From positions 1 to 20,538 of IMG/VR virus record IMGVR_UViG_3300042466_001662: DNA of 20,538 nt. One strand, 5' to 3'. This document shows, piece after piece, positions 2-16,088 of the stretch. Position numbers and translations under genes: made by a program. Under the pieces are notes generated by a model. The model saw nothing but the letters and a program-made list of their open reading frames with translations, was not told the DNA's origin and did not search any database. This DNA comes from a virus. Each line of letters starts with the position of its first letter. Position 1 is the stretch's first letter.

Positions 2-1264
2 GTAATTCGCGCCAATGCCGCTGGTGCCAACCTTAATGTAGTGCCAGAGCCGCCACGACCTCCTGCGAGACCGCCAGTAGTGGTAACCCCTCCTACCCCA
101 GTCGTTACAGCACCAACGGCACCAAAGAAGCCGCGAGCACGGAAGGGTGATGTTGTTGATACGGATATTAAACCGAAGCGCAGCCCTAAGAACACTGGCA
201 AAAAGGGTCTAGCCAACATTGACAACGCTATTGACCATCTTCAAAAAAATGATGGTCTTCTCGCCGACCTTCCAGAAAATGTTGTGGCAGAAGCGGTCAT
301 TGACAACAACCTTCGTGGCAATCCAGCAATCCTTGGTAAGACACGCAGTGAAATTATGCGTGGTGGATTTAAAGCAAATGGTCTCAGGCAAGGAGATACA
401 TTTGAAAATGATAGATACAAGTTCAAGTTAGTTAAAGAAACATCAGGATATGGCATCTGGGATGTTGTTGAAGTCGTCGATAAAGACACTAAAGAAAAAT
501 GGTTCTTGAAAGCATCACAGTTCGGTCAGCACGACGCAATGTTAGAAAATATTGGTATGGCGGCGGCGGAAGCACTTGACTTCGGCAACGATGCTAACCA
601 TATTAAAATGGGTGACGAGTTTGAGGCTTTTGACGGACGAAACGCACGATGGACAATGATGCGAGACATTAATCAGTGGGAGCATGGCGGTCAGAGGGGC
701 AATCAGCCGTATGCAGATGCGATTGATATGCCTCCGCAGTTGAGGTCAAAAATTGAATTACGCGATGCTGCAAGGCTCGCTGTCATGGACTTTGTTTTCG
801 ACAACCAAGACCGTCATGGAAGAAACTTCATGTTTGCCGAAAATGCTAAAGGTCAAGTGCGGTTAGGTGTTATCGATAATGGTCTTTTTGCTGGCGGAAG
901 AGTTGAAGATGGTGATTTCAAACGCTATGCAAAAGAGGTTAAAGGTCTTAATGTTGCTGAATACAAGGCTGGAAACCACCGTTTCTCTGGCAACAATGGA
1001 ATTAATGGACTCAGAAAGATTGGTTTCAGACACCAAGACGCCCCTAGCCGCGAGAGGTTTGCTGAACAAGCAAGGCGTTCGGTCGCAAGAATACAACAAG
1101 AACTTGATAGTATCCTTGACATAAAAAGAATTGAAGGAAATGGTGTGAAGTTGTCATCAACCGAAAAACAACATCTTGCCGCAGTTCGCACTATTGCAGA
1201 AGCAAGAATTGCTCATCTTTTAAATCCAGCAAACATGAACGAACTAGTCGGAATGTTCAACTAA
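2..1264 (+). CDS. HipA/PI3-4-kinase-like protein A, 5' end outside window
   Basis: The frame is open from the window edge. A GTG at 41 has no clear ribosome site, so the gene probably begins upstream. The first ~50 codons are Pro/Ala/Lys-rich and look disordered. A kinase-like fold follows. Numbered from the GTG at 41, a GDTF motif precedes the segment WFLKAS, whose Lys157 is the likely ATP-binding lysine. DNQDRHGRN (Asp257, Asn262; nt 800-826) is the likely catalytic loop, and IDNG (Asp279) the likely metal site. This Lys, DRHxxN, D[NQ]G order is that of HipA and PI3/4-kinase-like enzymes. The 842-aa protein at 1568 carries the same three motifs at similar spacing, so the two are paralogues. 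Both sit just upstream of the major capsid gene, which suggests virion-associated proteins. Substrate and real activity are unknown. The motif match is clear, but the family name is inference. Confidence 0.8.
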   Translation, partial: VIRANAAGANLNVVPEPPRPPARPPVVVTPPTPVVTAPTAPKKPRARKGDVVDTDIKPKRSPKNTGKKGLANIDNAIDHLQKNDGLLADLPENVVAEAVIDNNLRGNPAILGKTRSEIMRGGFKANGLRQGDTFENDRYKFKLVKETSGYGIWDVVEVVDKDTKEKWFLKASQFGQHDAMLENIGMAAAEALDFGNDANHIKMGDEFEAFDGRNARWTMMRDINQWEHGGQRGNQPYADAIDMPPQLRSKIELRDAARLAVMDFVFDNQDRHGRNFMFAENAKGQVRLGVIDNGLFAGGRVEDGDFKRYAKEVKGLNVAEYKAGNHRFSGNNGINGLRKIGFRHQDAPSRERFAEQARRSVARIQQELDSILDIKRIEGNGVKLSSTEKQHLAAVRTIAEARIAHLLNPANMNELVGMFN

Positions 1265-1271
1265 GGAAATT

Positions 1272-1562
1272 ATGTATCCAATAGTTTATACACAAACAGA
1301 CACAAACAAAAATAAGGCTTTCCGTTTAGTGGTAGTCACCGCTCTTGGTCAATTTGAAGAGCATTCCAATTTTGGAATTTACGATATTGAAACAAGCGAA
1401 AATTATTCAAACAATAAAGGTCGTTTTGATTCAGAAAAAGCAGTGCGGGGACTTTTCACTACTGGCTCACAGGGTTCTTCTACCGAATTTACAAAAATTG
1501 AAAATGCCAGCAAAGCAAAAATTACTTCTCTAATTAATGAAGTAAAGAATTACCACGAGTAG
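1272..1562 (+). CDS. small unknown protein between the two kinase-like genes
   Basis: This 96-aa protein is not recognised. The ATG at 1272 follows an AAGGAAAT ribosome site that overlaps the stop region of the preceding kinase-like gene, so the two are probably translated together. It has no signal peptide, membrane segment or cysteine. The middle is rich in Asn, Ser and Thr, and the C-terminus (SKAKITSLINEVKNY) looks helical. The arrangement kinase-like gene then small gene occurs twice in a row (see 4099-4416), which suggests a partner or chaperone role, but the two small proteins show no obvious similarity by eye. Confidence 0.75.
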   Translation: MYPIVYTQTDTNKNKAFRLVVVTALGQFEEHSNFGIYDIETSENYSNNKGRFDSEKAVRGLFTTGSQGSSTEFTKIENASKAKITSLINEVKNYHE

Positions 1563-1567
1563 TAACA

Positions 1568-4096
1568 ATGCATCAAAACCTTCTAAACCACAAATCTGCA
1601 CAGTTCGCAACAGAGCGTGACACTTCGTCCATACTGTACGAGGTAAAAAAGACTCGCGCTATTTGGGATGCTGGATTATCAGTCCCTGGCACTGACCGCA
1701 GAGGTGGCTGGCGTTGCCCGCCAGGAATGGCATTCGGTGGACAGATAACAGACCGCTTTGGTCGTAACTGTGGATACGGATTAGTTCGCCGTTTAGGCAA
1801 TGCAATGAATGACCTCGGCGAACGCATGAACGAAGGCGACAAGAGGCGTCGTGAGCGTCGCATTGCAAAACTTGGAGCAAATATCAATCAGCCAGGAATG
1901 GTAGAGCGTGCTGCTGGTCGGGTAGCCGATGCATTAGAGACCGACAAGAAACCTGCTCGTCGTGTACGAACAGGAAACATTGATGCCGTAAAGCCAATAA
2001 AACCTGTAAAACCTATAAAGCCAGTTGCGCGGGCAGCAAAAGGCGACTTAAAGAAGCCAGCAGCAGTTGACACTGTAAGCAACACCCCAGTTCCTGCAGG
2101 TGCCCCAAATGTCGGTGAAACCCTCAATGAGTACAAGCGTCGTAAGTACAACGAGCACCAGAAGCGTGTACGCGAAATCCAAGAAGGTGGCGGCAAGGCT
2201 GGGATGCTTAGATACCCAGAGTGGGATAAATTCCACGGTTCAGTAATTGAAGAAAACTGGAGAAAAAATAACGGTATCCCTAGGGCTAGAAAGCGTGTTG
2301 TCAACAAACCGAAGCCTAAAGATAAAATTGAGGCTGTTCCTGCGGATGAAGTTAAGAAGCCTGTTAAGCCTCGCGCCCCTAAGGCAAAGATTGCAGATGC
2401 CAAAAAGGAAGTCACGGCAGAGAAGCCAGCAGTAAAGAAAGCCGCTGTCAAGAAACCTGCTGTCAAGAAGGCTGCTGTCAAAAAAGAAGCAACGCCTAAA
2501 GACCCTACCAAAAAAGATAAGCCAATTGATTTCGCTGGAATACGGAAACAATTAAAAGGTAACGGAATTCTTGGTGCTGCCGATTTTGCAGAACTATTCA
2601 AAAATGAAAAAGATGCATTTGGTGATACTGTCCCAAGCAACGATATTCAGCCTCTCGCTCTTCGCGTCTACCAAGATGTAGATGCACGGCGTAAGGACAT
2701 CGGGGAAAGGTTTGCTGAGCGATACAAGAATGACACTCCTGCCCAATTTGATGCTTGGGTCTCTTTGTTTGAAGACGATATTAAGGGCGGCGAAAAAAAC
2801 ATTCTTGATGCTATTGACCGTCTAGAGAAAGCAATTGCTGACGGTGCGGAGCAAGATGAAATAAATCGTCTACGCGACAGAATTATTTCCAAGAACCGCC
2901 TTCATGTGGCAAATGTTGAAGTTGTTCGTTTAAACAAGGAATTGCCTCCACGCCCTGTTACTCCTCCTGAGTCAATAGTCCCAGAAGCCTCCGATGCTCG
3001 CGTTCTGGAACCTGCTGGCAAAGGCAAGGGTAAGGATTTAGCGAAAGTCCTTCGTGTTGCTGGAGTTAAAAAGCATGGCAAAGAAGGCAAAATTGCCAAA
3101 GGCGATGGGCTTCCTCCTGCGCCTGGTGAACTTCCTGTACCTCATATTGTTAATTCAAAGATGACAAGTGCTGAAGCAATCGCTCATGTTAAAGGCGGCG
3201 GCGACCTTGCTGTAGTCCCTCACAATCTCTGGCTTGAGGCAATTCAGGCAAACCTTAAATCAGAAAATAACCCAACTGGCAAATGGGGCAAATTGGCTAA
3301 AAAAGGTGGCAATATTGGTGACACTTTCATTTATGTAAAACTGGATGAAAAGGGCAGAAAAACAAACGCTGGCTGGGTATTCAAAGCATCAGCAGAAGAC
3401 GACAACTTGCATGAGTTAATGGCGTGGAACCTCGCAGGCGCTCATGGCTTCGATATTGAGGGTGCTCACATGGACGGACAAATCAACGGGCGTAATGCTG
3501 TTGTTTTGCCGTTTGCTCAACATCATGTTCCCAAAGAGTGGAAAGAAATTAGCGGAGACGGAAACAACTTCGATAAAGATGCAGTTGATAAACTTCCTGA
3601 CCGAGCATACCCACAGAGAATGGCACATTACCTTCACAACTATCTGCTGAATGTGCGAGACAGACATGCAGGAAATGGCTTTGCAAAAGTTTATGCCAAA
3701 CCAAGCGGTGAAAAAGTTGCACACATTATCCCTATTGACCAAGGGTGGGCATTCAAAAAAGGATACAACGCCCCTGAAGGAATAGACAGATACGACCTTG
3801 GAATGGATTACGACCTTTTCTCAAATATAAGTCGTCACTTGGCACGGATTGATGACAAAGTTGAGCGAGAGAAACAAAGAAAAGCCATTGTTGATGCAGT
3901 GGACGGTATAATTGAAAATGCTCAAAAAGTAATGAAAATGAATGAGTCAGATATTTATGACTGGGTAAAATCAATGTACCCAGAAGGTCAAAATGTTGGT
4001 AATGCAGATGTTGCTCGTTTTTGGAAAAACTACAGAAAAATGGTCAAGCAACTCACAGCGGAACGCAATAAAGTTATTGCGAAAATTGGAGGATAA
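1568..4096 (+). CDS. large HipA/PI3-4-kinase-like protein B with disordered Lys-rich middle
   Basis: This 842-aa protein has three parts. Residues 40-80 hold a Gly/Arg-rich segment with Cys50 and Cys68 (RCPPG...TDRFGRNCG). Residues ~100-310 are Lys/Ala/Pro-rich and probably disordered, with KPIKPV and AVKK repeats. A helical, charged stretch follows (~320-500). The last ~290 residues are kinase-like: Gly-Asp-Thr-Phe, Lys606 in GWVFKAS, Asp698 and Asn703 in RDRHAGN, and Asp724 in IDQG. These match protein A (2-1264) in order and spacing. The start ATG at 1568 lies 5 nt after the previous stop and has only a weak ribosome site. The next gene's GGAGGA lies across this gene's stop. The position before the capsid gene suggests a minor virion protein, possibly delivered to the host. 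The enzyme target is unknown. Confidence 0.85.
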   Translation: MHQNLLNHKSAQFATERDTSSILYEVKKTRAIWDAGLSVPGTDRRGGWRCPPGMAFGGQITDRFGRNCGYGLVRRLGNAMNDLGERMNEGDKRRRERRIAKLGANINQPGMVERAAGRVADALETDKKPARRVRTGNIDAVKPIKPVKPIKPVARAAKGDLKKPAAVDTVSNTPVPAGAPNVGETLNEYKRRKYNEHQKRVREIQEGGGKAGMLRYPEWDKFHGSVIEENWRKNNGIPRARKRVVNKPKPKDKIEAVPADEVKKPVKPRAPKAKIADAKKEVTAEKPAVKKAAVKKPAVKKAAVKKEATPKDPTKKDKPIDFAGIRKQLKGNGILGAADFAELFKNEKDAFGDTVPSNDIQPLALRVYQDVDARRKDIGERFAERYKNDTPAQFDAWVSLFEDDIKGGEKNILDAIDRLEKAIADGAEQDEINRLRDRIISKNRLHVANVEVVRLNKELPPRPVTPPESIVPEASDARVLEPAGKGKGKDLAKVLRVAGVKKHGKEGKIAKGDGLPPAPGELPVPHIVNSKMTSAEAIAHVKGGGDLAVVPHNLWLEAIQANLKSENNPTGKWGKLAKKGGNIGDTFIYVKLDEKGRKTNAGWVFKASAEDDNLHELMAWNLAGAHGFDIEGAHMDGQINGRNAVVLPFAQHHVPKEWKEISGDGNNFDKDAVDKLPDRAYPQRMAHYLHNYLLNVRDRHAGNGFAKVYAKPSGEKVAHIIPIDQGWAFKKGYNAPEGIDRYDLGMDYDLFSNISRHLARIDDKVEREKQRKAIVDAVDGIIENAQKVMKMNESDIYDWVKSMYPEGQNVGNADVARFWKNYRKMVKQLTAERNKVIAKIGG
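2426..2485 (+). repeat. four tandem 15-nt units inside kinase-like gene B
   Basis: Four consecutive 15-nt units (2426, 2441, 2456, 2471) each encode [PA]AVKK. The last three share GCTGTCAA with third-base changes only. They form part of the Lys/Ala-rich middle region, which resembles a histone H1 tail, and probably arose by in-frame duplication. Confidence 0.8.
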
Positions 4097-4098
4097 TT

Positions 4099-4416
4099 AT
4101 GGCGCAGGAAGAAATCCTCATCTACAAAACACCAACATCAATCCATGATGAAAGTGATGCAGAACTTATTTGCTCAATCTCTCGTGATGGCAAATCTCTC
4201 ACCATAAGAGGGATGAACAAGAATTGGGCAAGCACCTATTCTGACATCATTAAGAACTCATCAGGTCGACCAGATATTGGTAAAGACAAATACGGTCTAG
4301 TGACAATTCTCAACTCCACATACGGCAGAGAAGTCCATTACGGCGACCAAATTGAAGATGGCGTATTCGCTGAAGAATCAGCCACTCTTCCATTTAAAAT
4401 TACACTAAAAGTTTAG
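4099..4416 (+). CDS. small unknown protein after kinase-like gene B
   Basis: This 105-aa protein is not recognised. The ATG at 4099 follows a strong GGAGGA site (from about 4088) that overlaps the end of the kinase-like gene, only 2 nt away, so the two are surely co-expressed. The sequence is mixed alpha/beta in character, with a single Cys (CSISRDGK) and no membrane segment. It occupies the same position relative to its kinase-like neighbour as the 96-aa protein at 1272 does to protein A. A role in the head module is inferred only from location. Confidence 0.75.
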   Translation: MAQEEILIYKTPTSIHDESDAELICSISRDGKSLTIRGMNKNWASTYSDIIKNSSGRPDIGKDKYGLVTILNSTYGREVHYGDQIEDGVFAEESATLPFKITLKV

Positions 4417-4422
4417 GCACCA

Positions 4423-5250
4423 ATGTCACGCAAATCCATTATTGAGACCAAAACAGACAACCCAAAGTCACCCCTATTCGCTACCCGCGAACAGGCGATT
4501 AGTGCTGGGAATGGTTGCACGGGAGTGCGTATTGTTTTGGTTAATGGAGCACGGATGTTTGCTCCGTGCCCACCGAAAACAAATGGATTTGAAAAACTAG
4601 GCGAGCGTGGGATTCTTGGAATAGAGACCCTCCCTGACGGTGGTTTAGTTTCAGCAAAAGACGATGACATCGTGGAGATAGACGAGAAGGGCTTCGTTAG
4701 TAACTACAGCCGTTCTACTGACCCTGATGTTTTCTCTGACCCTGATTCTGCTCGTGTTCGTGCCCGCAATCTTGGCTGTATTGGGATTCGTTCATATATT
4801 GCAAAAGATGGCAAAAAGGTTTACTTGCCTTGTACAAATTCTTCTGACTACAACAAATACACGGGTCTACGCCATGACGGTAGACCGATGAAGAAGAAGT
4901 CAGCCCTGTCTCGTGTCGGTAAGCGCAAAATGCGCACGATTCTCACAAAACCAACTAAGCCAAGCGTGCCTAAAGAGATAGACATTGACTCACAAACAGT
5001 CAATACTCTCGCTATGAAAGTACGCCAGCACAACTCTGGAGTAACTAACAAGCCAGACTGGGCACATACAAACCTTAGAGTCTTAAAAGATGTTTACATA
5101 AGAGGAAATAAAGACGGCAAAGGGTTCGCCCGTGTCAATGAATTTCTAAAACTTGTGCGTAGCGGAACGGCTGATGCTGCCTACCACAAAGATGATGACC
5201 TTCTGGACTCAAATCACCCTTGGTTGAACAAGCCGAGCGGTAAAAAATAA
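4423..5250 (+). CDS. head-module protein with two Cys-pair modules
   Basis: This 275-aa protein carries an internal duplication. Module 1 has Cys32 and Cys49 (GCTGVR...MFAPC) and module 2 has Cys119 and Cys137 (GCIGIR...VYLPC). Each has the pattern Gly-Cys-x-Gly-[VI]-Arg, a short beta-like stretch, then [FY]-x-Pro-Cys, and each is preceded by an Ala/Arg-rich helix. The next region is very basic (MKKKSALSRVGKRKMR), and the C-terminus (ARVNEFLKLVRSG...DNDLL-like) looks helical. It is the last gene before the capsid gene, with 144 nt between them. Known phage layouts place protease, scaffold or minor head genes here, but I see no protease motif. The function is unknown. The paired cysteines could bind metal or form disulphides. 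Confidence 0.8.
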   Translation: MSRKSIIETKTDNPKSPLFATREQAISAGNGCTGVRIVLVNGARMFAPCPPKTNGFEKLGERGILGIETLPDGGLVSAKDDDIVEIDEKGFVSNYSRSTDPDVFSDPDSARVRARNLGCIGIRSYIAKDGKKVYLPCTNSSDYNKYTGLRHDGRPMKKKSALSRVGKRKMRTILTKPTKPSVPKEIDIDSQTVNTLAMKVRQHNSGVTNKPDWAHTNLRVLKDVYIRGNKDGKGFARVNEFLKLVRSGTADAAYHKDDDLLDSNHPWLNKPSGKK

Positions 5251-5394: not shown

Positions 5395-6696
5395 ATGTCT
5401 TTTGACGAATCCCGCCTACGGGAACTACAAGGTGCCTTGCGCACCAAAATGGCAGACAACAAAGCAATTGCTGACTCATTCCAAATTGAGAATGAAACAG
5501 TAGTAGTTGATGCCAAGCAAAAATCAGCATTTGATAGCAACATGCGTGATATCCGCGAAATCAAGAGCCTCATTGAGGGTCTTGAGGGAATGCGCGATGT
5601 CGATTCATGGTCAAACCAACCAGCAACCGCTTCGGTAGCACAAGAGTCAAACGCTCAAGGTCAGTGGGCTCCTCAGCCTCAGGCTAAGAGCCTTGGTCAA
5701 ATGTTCCTTGATTCACCAGAATTCAAGGCTTTGGATTCAGGTAAGAATGGCGCAAACATGCCAAGTCCTTTCCAATTGAACCGTGCAGATGTTGCGGGAA
5801 TGTGGAGCACCAAGGATATCTACTCAGCATTGCCATCAGGAACTCCTGGTTCGTTTGGTTCAATCCAGCGCGACCCAATGGTTCTTCCTCCAATGCGTAC
5901 TCGCCGTGTTCGTGACTTGTTCCCAAGCCGCACCACGACAGCAGCAGTTATCGAATACTTCCGCATGACTGGTTTCACCAACAACGCGGCAGCAGTTGCA
6001 GAGCGTGCCAGTTCGGCATTCGCTGCTAAGCCACAGTCGTCTTTCTCCTTCGTTGGAGAACAGGCTCCTGTACGCACCTTGGCACACTGGGAAGCAGCAC
6101 ATCGCAATGTTCTTGCTGATGAGCCACAACTGCGTTCAATCATTGATAACGAACTCCTTTACGGATTGCGTTTGCAAGAAGATTCACAAATTCTTACAGG
6201 TGACGGCGCTGGTGAAAACCTTCGCGGTATCTTGGAGACTTCAGGAATCCAGACATACGACTGGTCTGCAGGAGTTCTCGGTGACAACAAGGCTGATGCG
6301 ATTCGTCGTGCCGCAACCTTGTCGTTCCTTGCTTACTACGAGCCAACAGGTGTTGTTCTTCACCCTAACGATTGGGAAGACATTGAACTTTCCAAGGATG
6401 ACAATGGTCAGTACCTCGTAGCAGTTTCTGTTGCTATGGGTGGCGAGCCAAAGTTGTGGCGTATTCCTGTGGTTGATACCCCAGCAATGACAGAGGGCAC
6501 TGCTCTCGTCGGTGCTTTCGGTACAGGCGCACAGTTGTATGACCGTGAACAGGCAAGCATCCGTATCAGCGAACAGCATGCAGACTTCTTCGTCCGCAAC
6601 GCTATCGTTGTTCTTGCTGAGCAGCGTTTGGCTCTTGCAGTCAAGCGTCCTGAAGCATTCGTTGCAGTATCTTTCAACGGCGCTCCAGAAGCCTAA
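5395..6696 (+). CDS. major capsid protein, HK97 fold
   Basis: This 433-aa protein builds the icosahedral shell. Residues 1-95 are charged and helical, like the delta/scaffold domain of HK97-type capsids. The shell domain starts near Lys98 (KSLGQMFLDSPEFKAL), a common beginning of the mature part in this family. Typical landmarks follow: the E-loop region around the RASSAFAAK segment, RTLAHWEAAHRNVLAD, a helix with DSQILTGDGAGENLRGIL, the P-domain PTGVVLHPNDWEDIELSK, and the C-terminal FVRNAIVVLAEQRLALAVKRPEAF. ATG 5395 was chosen because AGGAG lies at 5385-5389. An in-frame upstream extension to 5326 has no such site and reads as non-coding. The gene ends with TAATAA and a strong terminator. 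No prohead protease is visible in the window; it may lie upstream. Confidence 0.95.
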   Translation: MSFDESRLRELQGALRTKMADNKAIADSFQIENETVVVDAKQKSAFDSNMRDIREIKSLIEGLEGMRDVDSWSNQPATASVAQESNAQGQWAPQPQAKSLGQMFLDSPEFKALDSGKNGANMPSPFQLNRADVAGMWSTKDIYSALPSGTPGSFGSIQRDPMVLPPMRTRRVRDLFPSRTTTAAVIEYFRMTGFTNNAAAVAERASSAFAAKPQSSFSFVGEQAPVRTLAHWEAAHRNVLADEPQLRSIIDNELLYGLRLQEDSQILTGDGAGENLRGILETSGIQTYDWSAGVLGDNKADAIRRAATLSFLAYYEPTGVVLHPNDWEDIELSKDDNGQYLVAVSVAMGGEPKLWRIPVVDTPAMTEGTALVGAFGTGAQLYDREQASIRISEQHADFFVRNAIVVLAEQRLALAVKRPEAFVAVSFNGAPEA

Positions 6697-6710: not shown

Positions 6711-6747
6711 AACCCCGCTCATGCCTTCGGGTGTGGGCGGGGTTTTT
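6711..6747 (+). terminator. strong intrinsic terminator after capsid gene
   Basis: The arms 6711-6725 and 6730-6744 pair over all 15 positions (G-U pairs included), closed by a C(UUCG)G tetraloop and followed by a T run to 6747. It ends the head-module transcript. The oxygenase gene starts 22 nt later. Confidence 0.95.
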
Positions 6748-6769
6748 GCTATATATGGGAAGATTATGT

Positions 6770-7309
6770 ATGAAAGAAAATGAATCGTTTTCATACTTTG
6801 GTGAGTTTCAAGATTTTGACTCGCTGTTACTGCTCGTCAATAAATTTGAAGAAGACGACTGGTTGGCGTATAAAGAACGCAAAAAAACAGGTGGTATTGC
6901 AAGCGCCTATAGCGACACCATTCCTTTGATTTATAATCCGAAAATTAGAAATGCAAAGGATATCCATCACATACATTATGAAAGATTTCAGCGTCATGTG
7001 GACGCAGTGATTCAGGCAGCACTGCCGTTTATTGGGAGAACCATCCCCGTTCAAGCCATGCTGACGCGCATGAAGCCGCAGTCAACAATTGCTAGACATA
7101 AAGATAGGGGCGAAGTAACGAAAGTCTCCCACCGCATTCATGTTCCAATCATTACTAATCAGCAATGCATATTCACTATTGAAAATGATGAAAAACATTT
7201 ACAAGCAGGGAGCGTCTGGTTGATAGACAACACTGACAGGTTTCATTCTGTTAGAAATGATGGCGATAAACATCGCATTCATCTAATTGTTGATGCCCGA
7301 GAAATATGA
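6770..7309 (+). CDS. aspartyl/asparaginyl beta-hydroxylase-like 2OG-Fe(II) oxygenase
   Basis: This 179-aa cupin protein is expected to hydroxylate an Asp, Asn or similar residue using 2-oxoglutarate, oxygen and Fe(II). By comparison with animal AspH, His110 (in ARHKDRG, with Asp112) and His159 (in RFHSVRN) are the iron ligands. Arg169 (HRIHLIVD) is the likely 2OG salt-bridge residue, and HRIHVPI (121-127) is the conserved middle strand. All key residues are present, so it should be active. ATG 6770 was chosen because GGGAAG lies at 6757-6762. Longer in-frame starts fall inside the terminator hairpin. The gene stands alone between two terminators. Such enzymes recur in phages of aquatic bacteria, but their substrates are mostly unknown. 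A virion protein is one possibility. Confidence 0.85.
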   Translation: MKENESFSYFGEFQDFDSLLLLVNKFEEDDWLAYKERKKTGGIASAYSDTIPLIYNPKIRNAKDIHHIHYERFQRHVDAVIQAALPFIGRTIPVQAMLTRMKPQSTIARHKDRGEVTKVSHRIHVPIITNQQCIFTIENDEKHLQAGSVWLIDNTDRFHSVRNDGDKHRIHLIVDAREI

Positions 7310-7748: not shown

Positions 7749-9674
7749 TCACTTTACAGGACAAGCACCGCCAGCACAGTCATCAAAGTCAATCTCAAAT
7801 CCGCGAGCGGCTTGCATTGGTGCAGAGAAGTCAACTTTCGCAAGAATCTTCTCATACTCTGCTTCGGTAATTTCCTCATATGGAGGCAACGGGAAGTTAT
7901 GGTCAGCATGAAGAAGGAAAGAGACCGACTTAACGCTCACATCATAATTCTTGGATAGCCATTCCCTGATTGAATCAAGTTCTTCCTTGCGGTAGTACAC
8001 AGTTACCGAAACAGCGTTATCTGCCCAGTCTCTCTGAAGTGCACTTACCCATTCCAACTGGTCAATAGCAGTCATGTCTTTAGCAAGCACAGAGTTATCT
8101 GGTGACTTACATGGAAACTCAACAACATACTTAGTGTGGTCTTCGCGTCCGTCAAGACCAATATCCCAAGTCACCTTATAACCACGGCGACGGCAAGCAT
8201 CAACGAGTTTATCGGCAGCACCGAACCGAACACGACGAATGTAGTGACGAGCAAATGCTGGGTGAATACCTGGTGTTACGCCAGGAAGCAAGGAGAGTGT
8301 TCCCGAAGGCTGAACAGTTGTCAAACGAACAGACACTGGCAGTTTGTTTTCGGCAGAGAACTGCTTGTCAAACCTGTCAAGTTCTTCATAGCCTGTTTTT
8401 AACCATGAAAGTTGCTCTGTGTTGCACTGAAGGATTCCAGTAACGGATTGTCCAAGTCGTGCATTCTTCTTCACGATGTTGGTTGTCTTCTCGTATGGGT
8501 AGTCCATTTGAGTGATGCGCTTCTGGCAGAGATACAGCAGGCGTGAGATTTCACAGAACTGCTCGTATGACTCAATATTCGGCAAGAACAAAGTTGCAAG
8601 GTTGCATGACTCACCGTCAGCCAGAGCAATCTCTGCGCAGGGGTTAAAGCCCTCAATAGATGGGTCAGGGCGCTTCTCCCCAGTACGACCAAATTGACGC
8701 GCTAGACGGCGATTGAGAAGCCCATACGGCTCTCCGTTGCCGCCATAGCCCTTCCATAGTTCAGGAAGGATATGGTCGTAGTAGTCGGCATAGATACTGT
8801 TGTTTGAGTTGGCTCGCCATGCTGGCACATCGCCACTTCCCCAGTTCTTTGCACGAAGGAAAAGAACATCGTCAGGGTCGCCGATAGCAATCTGTGCTGA
8901 ACGACGAGAAGAGCCAGAAACGACGATACGACCAATGATGTTGCAAATATCAAGCACATCAACTGAACGCAGTTTCTTTCCTGCACGGTTGTTCATTACA
9001 TTGCAAATGTCTTCAATACCATCAATGAGTGCACCAGGACCTGATGCTGTTCCACCAAAGGTGCTCAACTTGGCACCAAATTCACGAACAAGGATTGTTG
9101 AGTAGGTGAATGACTTGCCTGTAATGAAGTACGACTTCAGTGCGGCGTGAAGCAGGCGACGCCAACCGCCACGAGAGTCAGGAACAATGATGTCAGCATC
9201 ATTTGTGCGTTCATGAGTGATTGTTACATTTGACTTGACTTTTGGAAGGTCGTGAATCTTTGAACGCTCAACAGAGAACCCAACTCCGCCACCAAGCATG
9301 AGGTAGTCAAATAGAAGTTCAAAGTCTTCAATCTTTTCGATGTTTGTGAAGTAACAGTTATTCATTGATGTGCCATTGAATTGCTGTACAAGTGGTGTTC
9401 CTAATTGCCACAATGCTCGTCCGCTGAAAGAGCAGCGAAGGTTGAACATATGGTCAAAAAGTTTTTCTGCATCTTCTTTTGTGTACGGAACACCAATGTC
9501 GTATGCACCGTTGATGCAACGCTCAATTGTTTCTGCCCATGTTTCATTCATGTCTGTTCCGTCAATTGGACGGCTATATGTGCGGAGATAAACAATCTCT
9601 CCGAGACCGCCGAAACCCCAAGGTGGTGTTTGGTTCTGGTACGACAAAACGAACGATTTATCAAGTATTGACAC
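7749..9674 (-). CDS. nrdJ: class II (adenosylcobalamin-dependent) ribonucleotide reductase
   Basis: This 641-aa enzyme reduces ribonucleotides to deoxyribonucleotides for phage DNA synthesis. Cys346 in FNPCAEI is the thiyl-radical cysteine, with Asn344 and Glu348. Cys107 (NNCYF) and Cys357 (GESCNLAT) form the active-site disulphide pair. Cys633 and Cys638 (CAGGAC) near the C-terminus match the shuttle pair of Lactobacillus leichmannii RTPR. The 11-residue spacing 346-357 equals C408-C419 there. At 641 aa it is about 100 residues shorter than RTPR. There is no nrdB, nrdD or activase gene nearby, as expected for a monomeric B12 enzyme. The start is GTG at 9674, with AGGGG 6 nt upstream on the minus strand. 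The product depends on host cobalamin. No thioredoxin gene is seen here. Confidence 0.95.
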   Translation of the reverse strand: MSILDKSFVLSYQNQTPPWGFGGLGEIVYLRTYSRPIDGTDMNETWAETIERCINGAYDIGVPYTKEDAEKLFDHMFNLRCSFSGRALWQLGTPLVQQFNGTSMNNCYFTNIEKIEDFELLFDYLMLGGGVGFSVERSKIHDLPKVKSNVTITHERTNDADIIVPDSRGGWRRLLHAALKSYFITGKSFTYSTILVREFGAKLSTFGGTASGPGALIDGIEDICNVMNNRAGKKLRSVDVLDICNIIGRIVVSGSSRRSAQIAIGDPDDVLFLRAKNWGSGDVPAWRANSNNSIYADYYDHILPELWKGYGGNGEPYGLLNRRLARQFGRTGEKRPDPSIEGFNPCAEIALADGESCNLATLFLPNIESYEQFCEISRLLYLCQKRITQMDYPYEKTTNIVKKNARLGQSVTGILQCNTEQLSWLKTGYEELDRFDKQFSAENKLPVSVRLTTVQPSGTLSLLPGVTPGIHPAFARHYIRRVRFGAADKLVDACRRRGYKVTWDIGLDGREDHTKYVVEFPCKSPDNSVLAKDMTAIDQLEWVSALQRDWADNAVSVTVYYRKEELDSIREWLSKNYDVSVKSVSFLLHADHNFPLPPYEEITEAEYEKILAKVDFSAPMQAARGFEIDFDDCAGGACPVK

Positions 9675-12598: not shown

Positions 12599-13081
12599 AT
12601 GAATATTTCACCTATTGAATTGCCTGTCGTCAGGAACCTTCAAGAATCACGAGAACTAGCATCAATGTTTGCTGCAATTCTCACTGTTGGGCCAGAAGAA
12701 CGAGAAGTTAGATGGAAGCACGACAACCATAAAGTATTGGTTTTCGGCGACACCACCAGCGGACATGGCGCACCAACATTTGAACAAATTGCAGAAGCAG
12801 TTGAATGGGGCAAAGACCAAAACGACTTGCTCGTTCACTGTCACGCAGGAATGTCACGCTCAACCGCTACAGCATGGGGCATCTCAATCGCACGAGGTGC
12901 AGACCCACTAGACTCATTCCTTGCACTCAAAGAAGCACAACCACAAAGCGAATATCGTGGTGGACGCGGGCGTGAGTTCATCCCCAACAATCTAATCGTC
13001 AAGCACCTCGAAAAGTTTTTCAACATCAAAGGTCTCCTTGACATTCGCAAGGAACACGCAACATCAAGTGGATGGTTCTAA
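12599..13081 (+). CDS. dual-specificity protein phosphatase-like protein
   Basis: This 160-aa protein contains the cysteine-phosphatase P-loop HCHAGMSRS: nucleophile Cys81 and phosphate-binding Arg87, preceded by a hydrophobic strand (DLLVH) and followed by a helix (TATAWGISIARG). Asp51, about 30 residues before the Cys, fits the general-acid position. The size equals a single catalytic domain. It should remove phosphate from protein Tyr/Ser/Thr or from another phosphomonoester, acting in the host cytosol. The start ATG 12599 follows AAAGAAAG and its own promoter. It heads a run of very small genes, the next starting 2 nt after its stop. The phage also encodes two kinase-like proteins, but no link between them is shown. 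Confidence 0.85.
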   Translation: MNISPIELPVVRNLQESRELASMFAAILTVGPEEREVRWKHDNHKVLVFGDTTSGHGAPTFEQIAEAVEWGKDQNDLLVHCHAGMSRSTATAWGISIARGADPLDSFLALKEAQPQSEYRGGRGREFIPNNLIVKHLEKFFNIKGLLDIRKEHATSSGWF

Positions 13082-15503: not shown

Positions 15504-16088
15504 TTAGCGGTAAGGTTCACCCTCAGCCCATGCAACAATGCACCAGCGTTCACCGCTAGTCACAGGCGTGACATGGTTAGGTAGATACGAAGCCCACAGG
15601 GTAGCAAAGCCGATATTCGTAGGAATCACATTGTCCATGTGACCAGCAGAAAGCACCACATCGCCACCCTCATACTCGTCAGGTTCCGACAACTGAAGAA
15701 CCATAGATATTTTACGGCGGGGATTATTGCTAGACCAATCCATAGAGCGACTCAAGTGGTCACCCTCTCTGAATCTTAAAATCTGGACAGTCCTGATTAT
15801 GTTCCATTCAAAACGCCAAGAATTAGAACCTTCAAAAATAGTCTGCAAACGCTCCCAAAGACCAGGGTATTTCTTTTGCGACAGCGTATATGTCATCACC
15901 GAGCGAATAGATTTATCCGATTCATTTTCGTCAACGGCGACTTCATGAATACCGTCCTCCATCAAAGCAAGAGCAATCAACTCCTCGCATTCCTCAGGAG
16001 TAAAAACAGAAACAACATTCGCCACACCATGAAGGCTCGGCGCATAAACCAATTTCCCCCTAGGGATAAAATGTCTACCCTTTGCCAT
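15504..16088 (-). CDS. prolyl-4-hydroxylase-like 2OG oxygenase, one iron ligand replaced
   Basis: This 194-aa protein has the double-stranded helix of P4H/PKHD-type 2OG-Fe(II) oxygenases. It contains a helical N-terminus (FTPEECEELIALAL), ILRFREGDHLSRSMDW, ISMVLQLSEPDEYEGGDVVL, and LPNHVTPVTSGERWCIVAW. His172 and Arg181 match the distal His and 2OG-binding Arg. The first motif should read G-x5-H-x-D, but here it is Gly109...Ser115-Met-Asp117: the codon is TCT, so the first iron-binding His is missing. His111, four residues earlier, is unlikely to substitute. The protein may therefore be inactive, bind iron differently (as halogenases do with another residue), or have another role. It overlaps the preceding gene by 14 nt, with GAGG before ATG 16088. 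Confidence 0.85.
   Translation of the reverse strand: MAKGRHFIPRGKLVYAPSLHGVANVVSVFTPEECEELIALALMEDGIHEVAVDENESDKSIRSVMTYTLSQKKYPGLWERLQTIFEGSNSWRFEWNIIRTVQILRFREGDHLSRSMDWSSNNPRRKISMVLQLSEPDEYEGGDVVLSAGHMDNVIPTNIGFATLWASYLPNHVTPVTSGERWCIVAWAEGEPYR

Follow-up and report, generated by a model that had tools for sequence, protein, structure and literature searches.

Gene organization of the head module

The 20.5-kb window analyzed here (20,538 nucleotides, nt) is a fragment of virus record IMGVR_UViG_3300042466_001662. Upstream of its major capsid protein (MCP) gene it encodes two proteins, designated A and B, with C-terminal kinase-like domains. The open reading frame (ORF) of A is cut by the window edge, which leaves the C-terminal 420 of its 1003 amino acids (aa; positions 2–1264, + strand; full length, L003:7832-10843). 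The kinase-like domain of A (residues 650–969 of 1003; 200–1159, +) was placed by its motifs and by a family hidden Markov model (HMM; E=9.4e-63, A itself being a seed of the model). Its kinase sites are at window positions 509–511 (Lys), from 809 (DRHGRN) and 875–877 (metal Asp), all on the + strand. The small gene behind A (1272–1562, +) encodes 96 aa and gave no Pfam family at E<=10 and no significant PHROG.

Protein B (842 aa; 1568–4096, +) consists of an N-terminal module (N-module), a basic linker and the C-terminal kinase-like domain. The N-module (residues 1–133; 1568–1966, +), defined by alignments A1 and A5 and 43 viral loci, contains a Cys motif, RCPPGMAFGGQITDRFGRNCG (C50–C68, 1715–1771). 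The linker (residues 75–330; 1790–2557, +) was recognized by its composition (27% K+R, 12.5% D+E, 9% P). The kinase-like domain (residues 529–804; 3152–3979, +) includes K606, E616, DRHxxN at 698–703 and D724. A small gene for 105 aa follows (4099–4416, +), and in other phages its homologues stand behind kinases of this type. Between the array and MCP lies a recurrent gene, p275 (4423–5250, +). The MCP gene itself (5395–6696, +) had been correctly named in a first-pass annotation of this DNA (Phage_capsid, E=3.5e-47).

The same region was present at 100% protein identity on two IMG/VR contigs. The contig IMGVR_UViG_3300042549_005347 supplied the part of the array beyond the window edge, including the full 1003-aa gene of A. 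The order there is portal, S78 prohead protease, p465, P, C, A, 96-aa gene, B, 105-aa gene, p275 and MCP, with small ORFs surrounding P. Thus P, C, A and B (639, 677, 1003 and 842 aa) form a four-gene array between the protease and major capsid genes. The portal matched Phage_portal in Pfam (E=3.7e-52) and had a MuF-like C-terminus (Phage_Mu_F, E=2.9e-6, below the family cutoff); the protease matched S78 at E=2.7e-11.

All four array proteins share a Cys-containing motif within a longer N-terminal module (alignment A1). In A and B the motif reads RCPPG...GGQITDRFGRNC, and these two proteins have part of the linker in common as well (44% over 140 residues and 59% over 75). A and B had been described as twins; they are instead two of four N-module paralogues, of which a third, upstream copy (C) ends in a degenerate kinase.

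Motifs, predicted fold and catalytic residues

In the fragment of A, GDTF is at residue 131, LKAS at 169 (Lys 170), DRHGRN at 270 and IDNG at 291. In B, GDTF is at 584, FKAS at 605 (Lys606), DRHAGN at 698 and IDQG at 723. The motifs and coordinates reported at first pass were exact, with 100 (A) and 92 (B) residues from Lys to DRH, and 22 and 26 from the Asp of DRH to that of D[NQ]G. The DRHxxN...ID[NQ]G pair appeared in none of 40,000 composition shuffles, which argued against chance. A one-piece pattern with 20–60 residues from GDTF to the Lys motif matched A and missed B, because this gap is shorter in B. GDTF was rejected as a family motif. In an alignment of 27 rows (B and 26 others), the Gly just before it belongs to the columns with no or almost no variation, but GDTF itself does not.

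Sub-threshold Pfam matches were obtained for A (PI3_PI4_kinase, E=3.8e-4; HipA_C, 4.2e-4; Fam20C, 6.4e-3) and B (PI3_PI4_kinase, E=0.043). The curated gathering scores were not reached for PI3_PI4_kinase (A, 20.9, and B, 14.2, versus 27.1 bits) or for HipA_C (A, 20.5 versus 30.5). PI3_PI4_kinase matched 23 of the 27 members at E<=0.1 (best, 1.6e-7). A profile-to-PDB search returned Fam20 (2.1e-5) and PI4K-beta (3e-4), and also mTOR and CtkA.

An AlphaFold2 (AF2) model of B residues 521–842, built on the 27-row alignment, had a predicted local distance difference test score (pLDDT) of 87.6 and a predicted template modeling score (pTM) of 0.88. Foldseek matched this model in the PDB to CtkA (4.8e-6), HipA (7.9e-5) and PI3K (3.1e-4). 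The highest VIA Z scores were those of CotH (13.3; root mean square deviation 4.5 over 256), PI4K-II-alpha (12.5; 4.6 over 244) and CtkA (12.4; 4.3 over 219), followed by actin-fragmin kinase (11.6), MavQ (11.1), HipA (11.0) and Fam20 (10.8). VIA lists Foldseek's candidates only, and the absence of other folds there carries no meaning. Since several families are close in Z, no single kinase family was assigned. The model and its structure matches placed the domain in a HipA/PI3K-PI4K/Fam20/CotH class, in line with the HipA/PI3-4-kinase assignment made at first pass, and the predicted fold was that of a kinase rather than an unrelated one.

K606, E616, D698, R699, H700, N703 and D724 were invariant in all 27 rows, including the three residues (Lys606, Asp698 and Asp724) singled out beforehand. 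Because the rows were selected by DRHxxN, only K606, E616 and D724 constitute an independent test of conservation. The Lys, Glu and metal Asp were retained across kinases with identities as low as 0.22. Compared with the relative at L006, the ratio of nonsynonymous to synonymous divergence (dN/dS) was 0.07 for the B kinase and 0.26 for the linker; the former is a rough value because the kinase dS (2.3) is near saturation. Of the 43 domains found by the family HMM, DRHxxN is kept in 29 and absent from the 13 in the C position; the last is truncated at the end of its contig. From these data and the model, A and B are confidently predicted to be atypical kinases of the CotH/PI4K/CtkA/HipA/Fam20 class with their catalytic residues present, and it is quite likely that they phosphorylate a substrate of some kind.

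Distribution of the array among phages

Scanned with the N-module alignment, the viral contigs yielded 43 loci, all of which contain the module by selection. An ORF with the Cys motif was found by pattern in 42 of them, the exception being L056. Some loci are near-duplicates or come from the same phage (L016/L017, L026/L029, L032/L033, L034/L040 and L027/L039). The kinase alignment (A2) retrieved only three close loci from the viral contigs. An intact kinase motif was present in 21 of the 43 loci, and many of the others were truncated or had other domains.

Nine loci span p465 to MCP, and eight of these (L016, L017, L019, L020, L022, L023, L026 and L029) have the order p465-P-C-A-B-p275-MCP. 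The ninth, L042, has a shorter array, in which P is absent and a C-position pseudokinase and a single A/B protein lie between p465 and p275, with MCP after these. Three A- or B-like genes were found in each of L024 and L034. The place of the kinases in the head gene module, noticed in the window, thus recurs in other phages.

Among 18 longer records (37–148 kb), 17 contained the N-module, always in one cluster of <14 kb; the remaining record, G002, starts inside B. There were four or five N-module matches in ten records (including, in two of the ten, weak extra matches inside protein A), three in one and two in six. Kinase-profile matches, found in 15 of the 18, were confined to the head cluster or, in G002, to the cut B. 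In bacterial genomes, the N-module alignment produced 466 pattern stretches, none of which was confirmed. A tblastn search of 50,697 phage records found no cultured relative for the A fragment, B, or one C and one A/B protein from related loci.

WhiB genes were present in 14 of the 18 longer records, and among 14 control genomes only Corynebacterium matched. This indicated actinobacterial hosts, and the uncultured phages carrying the array are, judging from these genes, probably actinobacterial. No tyrosine integrase was found in any of the 18 records, whose completeness is unknown; other integrases were not searched.

Exchange of the C-terminal domains

The kinase domains were far more divergent than the N-modules in front of them. 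In 21 kinase-bearing A/B proteins the mean identity was 0.75 in the N-module and 0.31 in the kinase. Between L020 and L022, the A proteins were 0.95 identical in the N-module and 0.33 in the kinase, with p465 at 0.87 and MCP at 0.89. Between L028 and L032, the corresponding values for B were 0.94 and 0.28, with p275 at 0.84. This is the pattern of polymorphic toxins, in which a variable C-terminal domain stands behind a constant N-module.

Kinase types were also found in different slots. The kinase type of the window's B occurred in A-like genes of L027, L028, L031 and L032, and that of its A occurred in B-like genes of L024, L027 and L034. The kinase types changed slots together with their small gene.

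Kinase B of the window was 73% identical to that of L006, versus 96% for MCP. At the synonymous level, the same pair had a dS of 0.14 for MCP, about 0.8 for p275 and the 105-aa gene, and 2.3 for the B kinase. The low value for MCP relative to the other three suggests recombination along the head module.

Small partner genes track the kinase type

That each kinase gene is followed by a small gene had been correctly noted at first pass, and of the two parts of that observation this one proved the more informative. A small gene stood behind all 29 active kinase genes (26 after removal of those >90% identical). It was called directly for 27 of the 29; the copies in L020 and L022 were hidden and were missed at first because the start of the next gene had been over-extended. 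Behind the pseudokinase there was none in the 12 cases with downstream sequence, and the next large gene started -19 to +30 nt away.

Among the 26 dereplicated kinases, 39 of the 325 pairs had homologous partners. The mean kinase identity was 0.433 in these pairs versus 0.211 in the others, a difference reached in none of 20,000 permutations. The permutations do not model phylogeny; the control for shared descent was the same comparison of N-module identity: in the 20 kinases with an A/B N-module it was 0.773 versus 0.770 (4,138 of 10,000 permutations). The kinase-partner effect was unchanged after regression on N-module identity (0/10,000). The small-gene family thus tracks the kinase type and not the N-module.

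Two small genes follow the P protein of L024, in which a kinase is combined with an HExxH region. By single-linkage clustering, one belonged to the partners of the P-slot kinases and the other to the small genes of HExxH proteins. As a control, a small gene before P was called as an ORF in 15 loci. Eleven of these form one family, so this gene is not variable in the manner of the partners; the remaining four (L020, L030, L032 and L033) look like wrong-frame calls.

Two further ideas about the partners were rejected. Fusion of a partner of pseudokinase C to the N-terminus of A (an extension of 90–130 aa) gave a best profile comparison of 3.6% probability. A single superfamily of partners was not supported among the families compared, of which only the P-slot-kinase and SLxF partners were related (87.8%, E=3.3e-6; next best, 16.6%).

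Pseudokinase C and the domains of the P slot

Protein C (L003:5797-7830, +) has at its end a diverged version of the kinase domain in which, by alignment, the Lys and the metal Asp are replaced. The degenerate kinase occurs in the same array position in 13 proteins. The seed HMM, made from DRHxxN proteins only, found 11 of them (E from 3.4e-9 to 2.7e-3), and iteration added two. The C form of the Cys motif was matched by pattern in 10 of the 13; those of L024, L042 and L043 were in the C position without a match.

The P slot was more varied. It contained a kinase in L019, L021 and L023, a kinase with an HExxH region in L024, and an HExxH motif in L025, L026, L029, L030, L032, L035 and the large forms of L044–L058. 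An unassigned domain with the motif GVRPVYGF was found in the window phage, L020, L022, L031 and L036. An ADP-ribosyltransferase (ART) reading of this domain in the window phage (GVRPVYGF...RTTIHHRDS) was dropped: there was no Pfam match, the best PDB profile match was LRRK2 at E 0.07, and the AF2 model had a pLDDT of 38. In the B slot, a shared terminal domain was present in five of seven compared B proteins without a kinase.

After p465, L045, L046, L048, L050, L053, L057 and L058 encode giant P-type N-module proteins (2,118–3,490 aa) in which HExxH occurs once or twice. Those of L045 and L053 also carry a DGHHR motif.

A putative array of packaged effectors

We interpreted A and B as two members of a polymorphic effector array, probably packaged in the head and injected, with the small genes encoding an antidote or a chaperone; we give this reading a probability of roughly 0.6. 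The head location was inferred from the position of the genes, and packaging of the kinase array proteins appears likely. Their role as injected effectors is somewhat less assured, and still favored. Since the small gene accompanies the kinase domain rather than the N-module, its product most likely binds that kinase. There would be about an even chance that it is an inhibitor of that kinase; a role as chaperone is the less probable of the two.

In the proposed mechanism, the N-module would be the constant front that targets or packages the protein into the head. Behind the long basic linker, the exchangeable C-terminal domain could be a kinase of one subfamily or another, a metalloprotease-like HExxH domain or some other domain. 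The small protein would keep the kinase silent in the producing cell as an antidote, which we favor, or serve as a cognate packaging chaperone. On infection, the injected kinase would phosphorylate host proteins early, and this might shut off host functions or disarm defence. More broadly, and at somewhat less than even odds, a new non-MuF head-delivery domain may serve a modular array, with several enzymes per virion, mostly kinases, exchanged as enzyme-plus-antidote cassettes in virulent-looking phages.

Several observations weigh against the effector interpretation. A phage that looks virulent (tyrosine integrase in 0/18 records) would have no obvious need of an antidote. Seven pairs with homologous partners had kinase identities <0.25, and six kinase pairs with >0.35 identity had no detectable partner homology. 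Two kinase-type small genes, L031_7626 and L036_7614, were also found where the P protein in front has no kinase, and look like orphan immunity genes. The window's 96-aa and 105-aa proteins gave no Pfam match, other partner families not having been searched, and therefore no known immunity protein could be named. The C proteins of other loci (the L025–L033 group and L036) lacked a detectable kinase-like domain, and the degenerate kinase kept in 13 C-position proteins means that the fold can also have a role without catalysis, which may be structural. In the P slot, HExxH was a motif match only, with no Pfam peptidase family for the HExxH proteins scanned, and the domain of the window phage was poorly modeled (pLDDT 38).

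The location of the genes between protease and MCP, adjoining the portal-protease-MCP core, would also suit kinases of assembly, parts of the inner head or the scaffold that drive maturation by phosphorylating capsid, scaffold, portal or protease, with the small genes as assembly chaperones. The retained pseudokinase C, in which the fold is kept without catalysis, is compatible with this. A maturation enzyme, however, should evolve with the capsid, and here the kinase was swapped while MCP, p465 and the N-module stayed alike; the contrast between kinase B and MCP in the comparison with L006 is of the same kind, and some phages have other domains, and no kinase, in the same slots. We consider assembly kinases unlikely, and phosphorylation of capsid or scaffold, as suggested at first pass, fits poorly with domain swapping and kinase-specific partner genes. 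The pseudokinases lend themselves as well to a purely structural explanation, in which the kinase fold would be a rigid, catalytically idle part of the head or injection channel in all four proteins, as the 13 degenerate C-position domains without DRHxxN could be. This is very improbable in view of the DRHxxN kept in 29 of the 43 HMM-found domains and the Lys, Glu and metal Asp that are invariant in 27/27 rows and among kinases down to 0.22 identity.

HipA ranks among the nearest structure matches, and every active kinase is paired with a cognate small gene, as would be expected of HipA-like toxin-antitoxin modules in a late operon. Such modules would act, unpackaged, in the infected cell for superinfection exclusion or host arrest. 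Against this, neither of the window's two small genes had a helix-turn-helix or other Pfam match, and the kinases are fused to an N-module found in the head cluster only; a protein that acts at its site of synthesis would have no plausible need of a shared front end. The toxin-antitoxin explanation was thus judged quite unlikely, below assembly kinases and above idle structural domains. The packaged effector array remained our preferred interpretation.

Kinases in cultured phages

Searched alone against phage records, the kinase domains gave weak matches (E up to 10) to Pumpernickel, Mx1 and Vibrio phages. The gp82 of Microbacterium phage Pumpernickel (2235 aa) ends in a kinase domain (46 bits with the seed HMM, run on a set of seven proteins; Pfam PI3_PI4_kinase, 7.2e-5, sub-threshold). 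It lies after portal gp80 and before gp84 and gp85, and is followed by a 205-aa gene; the PHROG matches of gp84 bear the names portal protein and head maturation protease, and gp85 matched major head protein. In Myxococcus phage Mx1, a kinase of 619 aa (Pfam, 34.4 bits versus the cutoff of 27.1) lies beside a Nudix protein of 1479 aa, and the genes that come next encode a 103-aa product and a virion structural protein. The earlier statement that kinase-like enzymes are not usual in head modules was therefore too strong. The small genes of Pumpernickel and Mx1 matched none of the partner families of the array.

In prophiFSQJ01-1, gp54, a mycobacterial minor-capsid/ART protein, combines VG15, a weakly kinase-like middle (12.9 bits, no DRHxxN) and an ART domain. 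BFVD matches were proteins of uncultured phages, one of them named 'Phosphatidylinositol 3-/4-kinase, catalytic domain containing protein' (8.4e-11), so that a database name for the kinase domain exists already; another match was the ART of Mycobacterium phage Onyinye (2.8e-6). Two further loci were noted. In small Vibrio phages of Tectiliviricetes, L061:10953-11918 encodes a HipA-like protein next to one with a HIRAN domain. In Micromonospora phage pMLP1, which has no annotation, a 647-aa ORF (L063:5429-7372) contains DRNPGN and gave a weak kinase match of 21.5 bits.

Comparison with known systems

The array kinases resemble HipA, CtkA and HipT in predicted fold and catalytic residues. HipA phosphorylates a tRNA synthetase. 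Unlike these enzymes, the array kinases are fused to a phage N-module, and the identity in structural alignments was about 9–16%. No HipB-type helix-turn-helix antitoxin was recognized beside the window's kinases, the 96-aa and 105-aa neighbours having no Pfam family at E<=10.

Polymorphic toxins are marked by a constant front, a swapped enzyme and an enzyme-specific small gene (PMC5576092, PMC3482391), and delivery from the head is described for MuF and polyvalent proteins (PMC5512222, PMC9503650). In the MuF polymorphic toxins of temperate phages, a constant head-associated N-domain, a variable C-domain and a downstream cognate gene lie in the portal-capsid module (PMC5576092); the Apk2 paper (PMC12226406) was grouped with them. 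The array has the same constant N-terminus, variable C-terminal domain, downstream cognate small gene and place in the portal-capsid module. Unlike MuF toxins, A, B, C and P of the window phage had no MuF match, the MuF-like domain being fused to the portal. There are several cargo genes per genome, versus one directly after the portal; the 18 records of array phages contained no tyrosine integrase; and the kinases are of the CotH/PI4K/HipA/Fam20 class.

Polyvalent proteins are large, are predicted to be packaged and injected, and contain proteases, ARTs, kinases and ParB-like domains (PMC5512222). The P-type proteins of the array, at up to 3,490 aa, are alike in size. The kinases of polyvalent proteins are described as of the Ser/Thr/Tyr type without the C-terminal subdomain (PMC5512222), whereas the model of the array kinase has a helical C-lobe and DRHxxN chemistry. 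The array effectors are also split over several genes with a shared N-module; one catalytic domain each was recognized in A and B, and L024 P has a kinase and an HExxH motif region. The delivery module and kinase class of the array thus differ from those of the MuF and polyvalent systems.

T4 Alt is a head-packaged ART (PMC5512222). The mode proposed for the array enzymes, namely head packaging, injection with the DNA and modification of host proteins, is the same; the chemistry is different. The effectors so far known to be packaged in heads are chiefly ARTs, RNA polymerases and MuF toxins (PMC5512222, PMC9503650). If our interpretation is correct, the array would add a class of injected kinases to these, as a kinase-based counterpart of polymorphic toxins that a phage turns on its own host as infection begins. 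It would also provide a new packaging module for finding more cargo, and dozens of kinase/partner pairs as candidate inhibitor pairs. Literature searches, in which the sources were available in part, returned no description of the array, the N-module or the partner linkage.

Other features of the window and related contigs

A promoter scan of the array was uninformative (18 found versus 20.0 expected; terminators, 23 versus 17.0). A tail sheath guessed by eye at L010:239-1711 had no Pfam family, and a contractile tail is therefore not claimed.

Directly behind MCP, the window encodes an Asp/Asn beta-hydroxylase-like protein (6731–7309, +; 9.7e-16). A second 2-oxoglutarate-Fe(II) oxygenase is at 15504–16088 (-; 1.1e-9), and a B12-dependent (class II) ribonucleotide reductase at 7749–9674 (-). 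At 12599–13081 (+) is a dual-specificity-phosphatase-like protein with the signature HCHAGMSRS (Pfam DSPc, E=8.1e-5, below the cutoff), which could be a counterpart of the head-module kinases.

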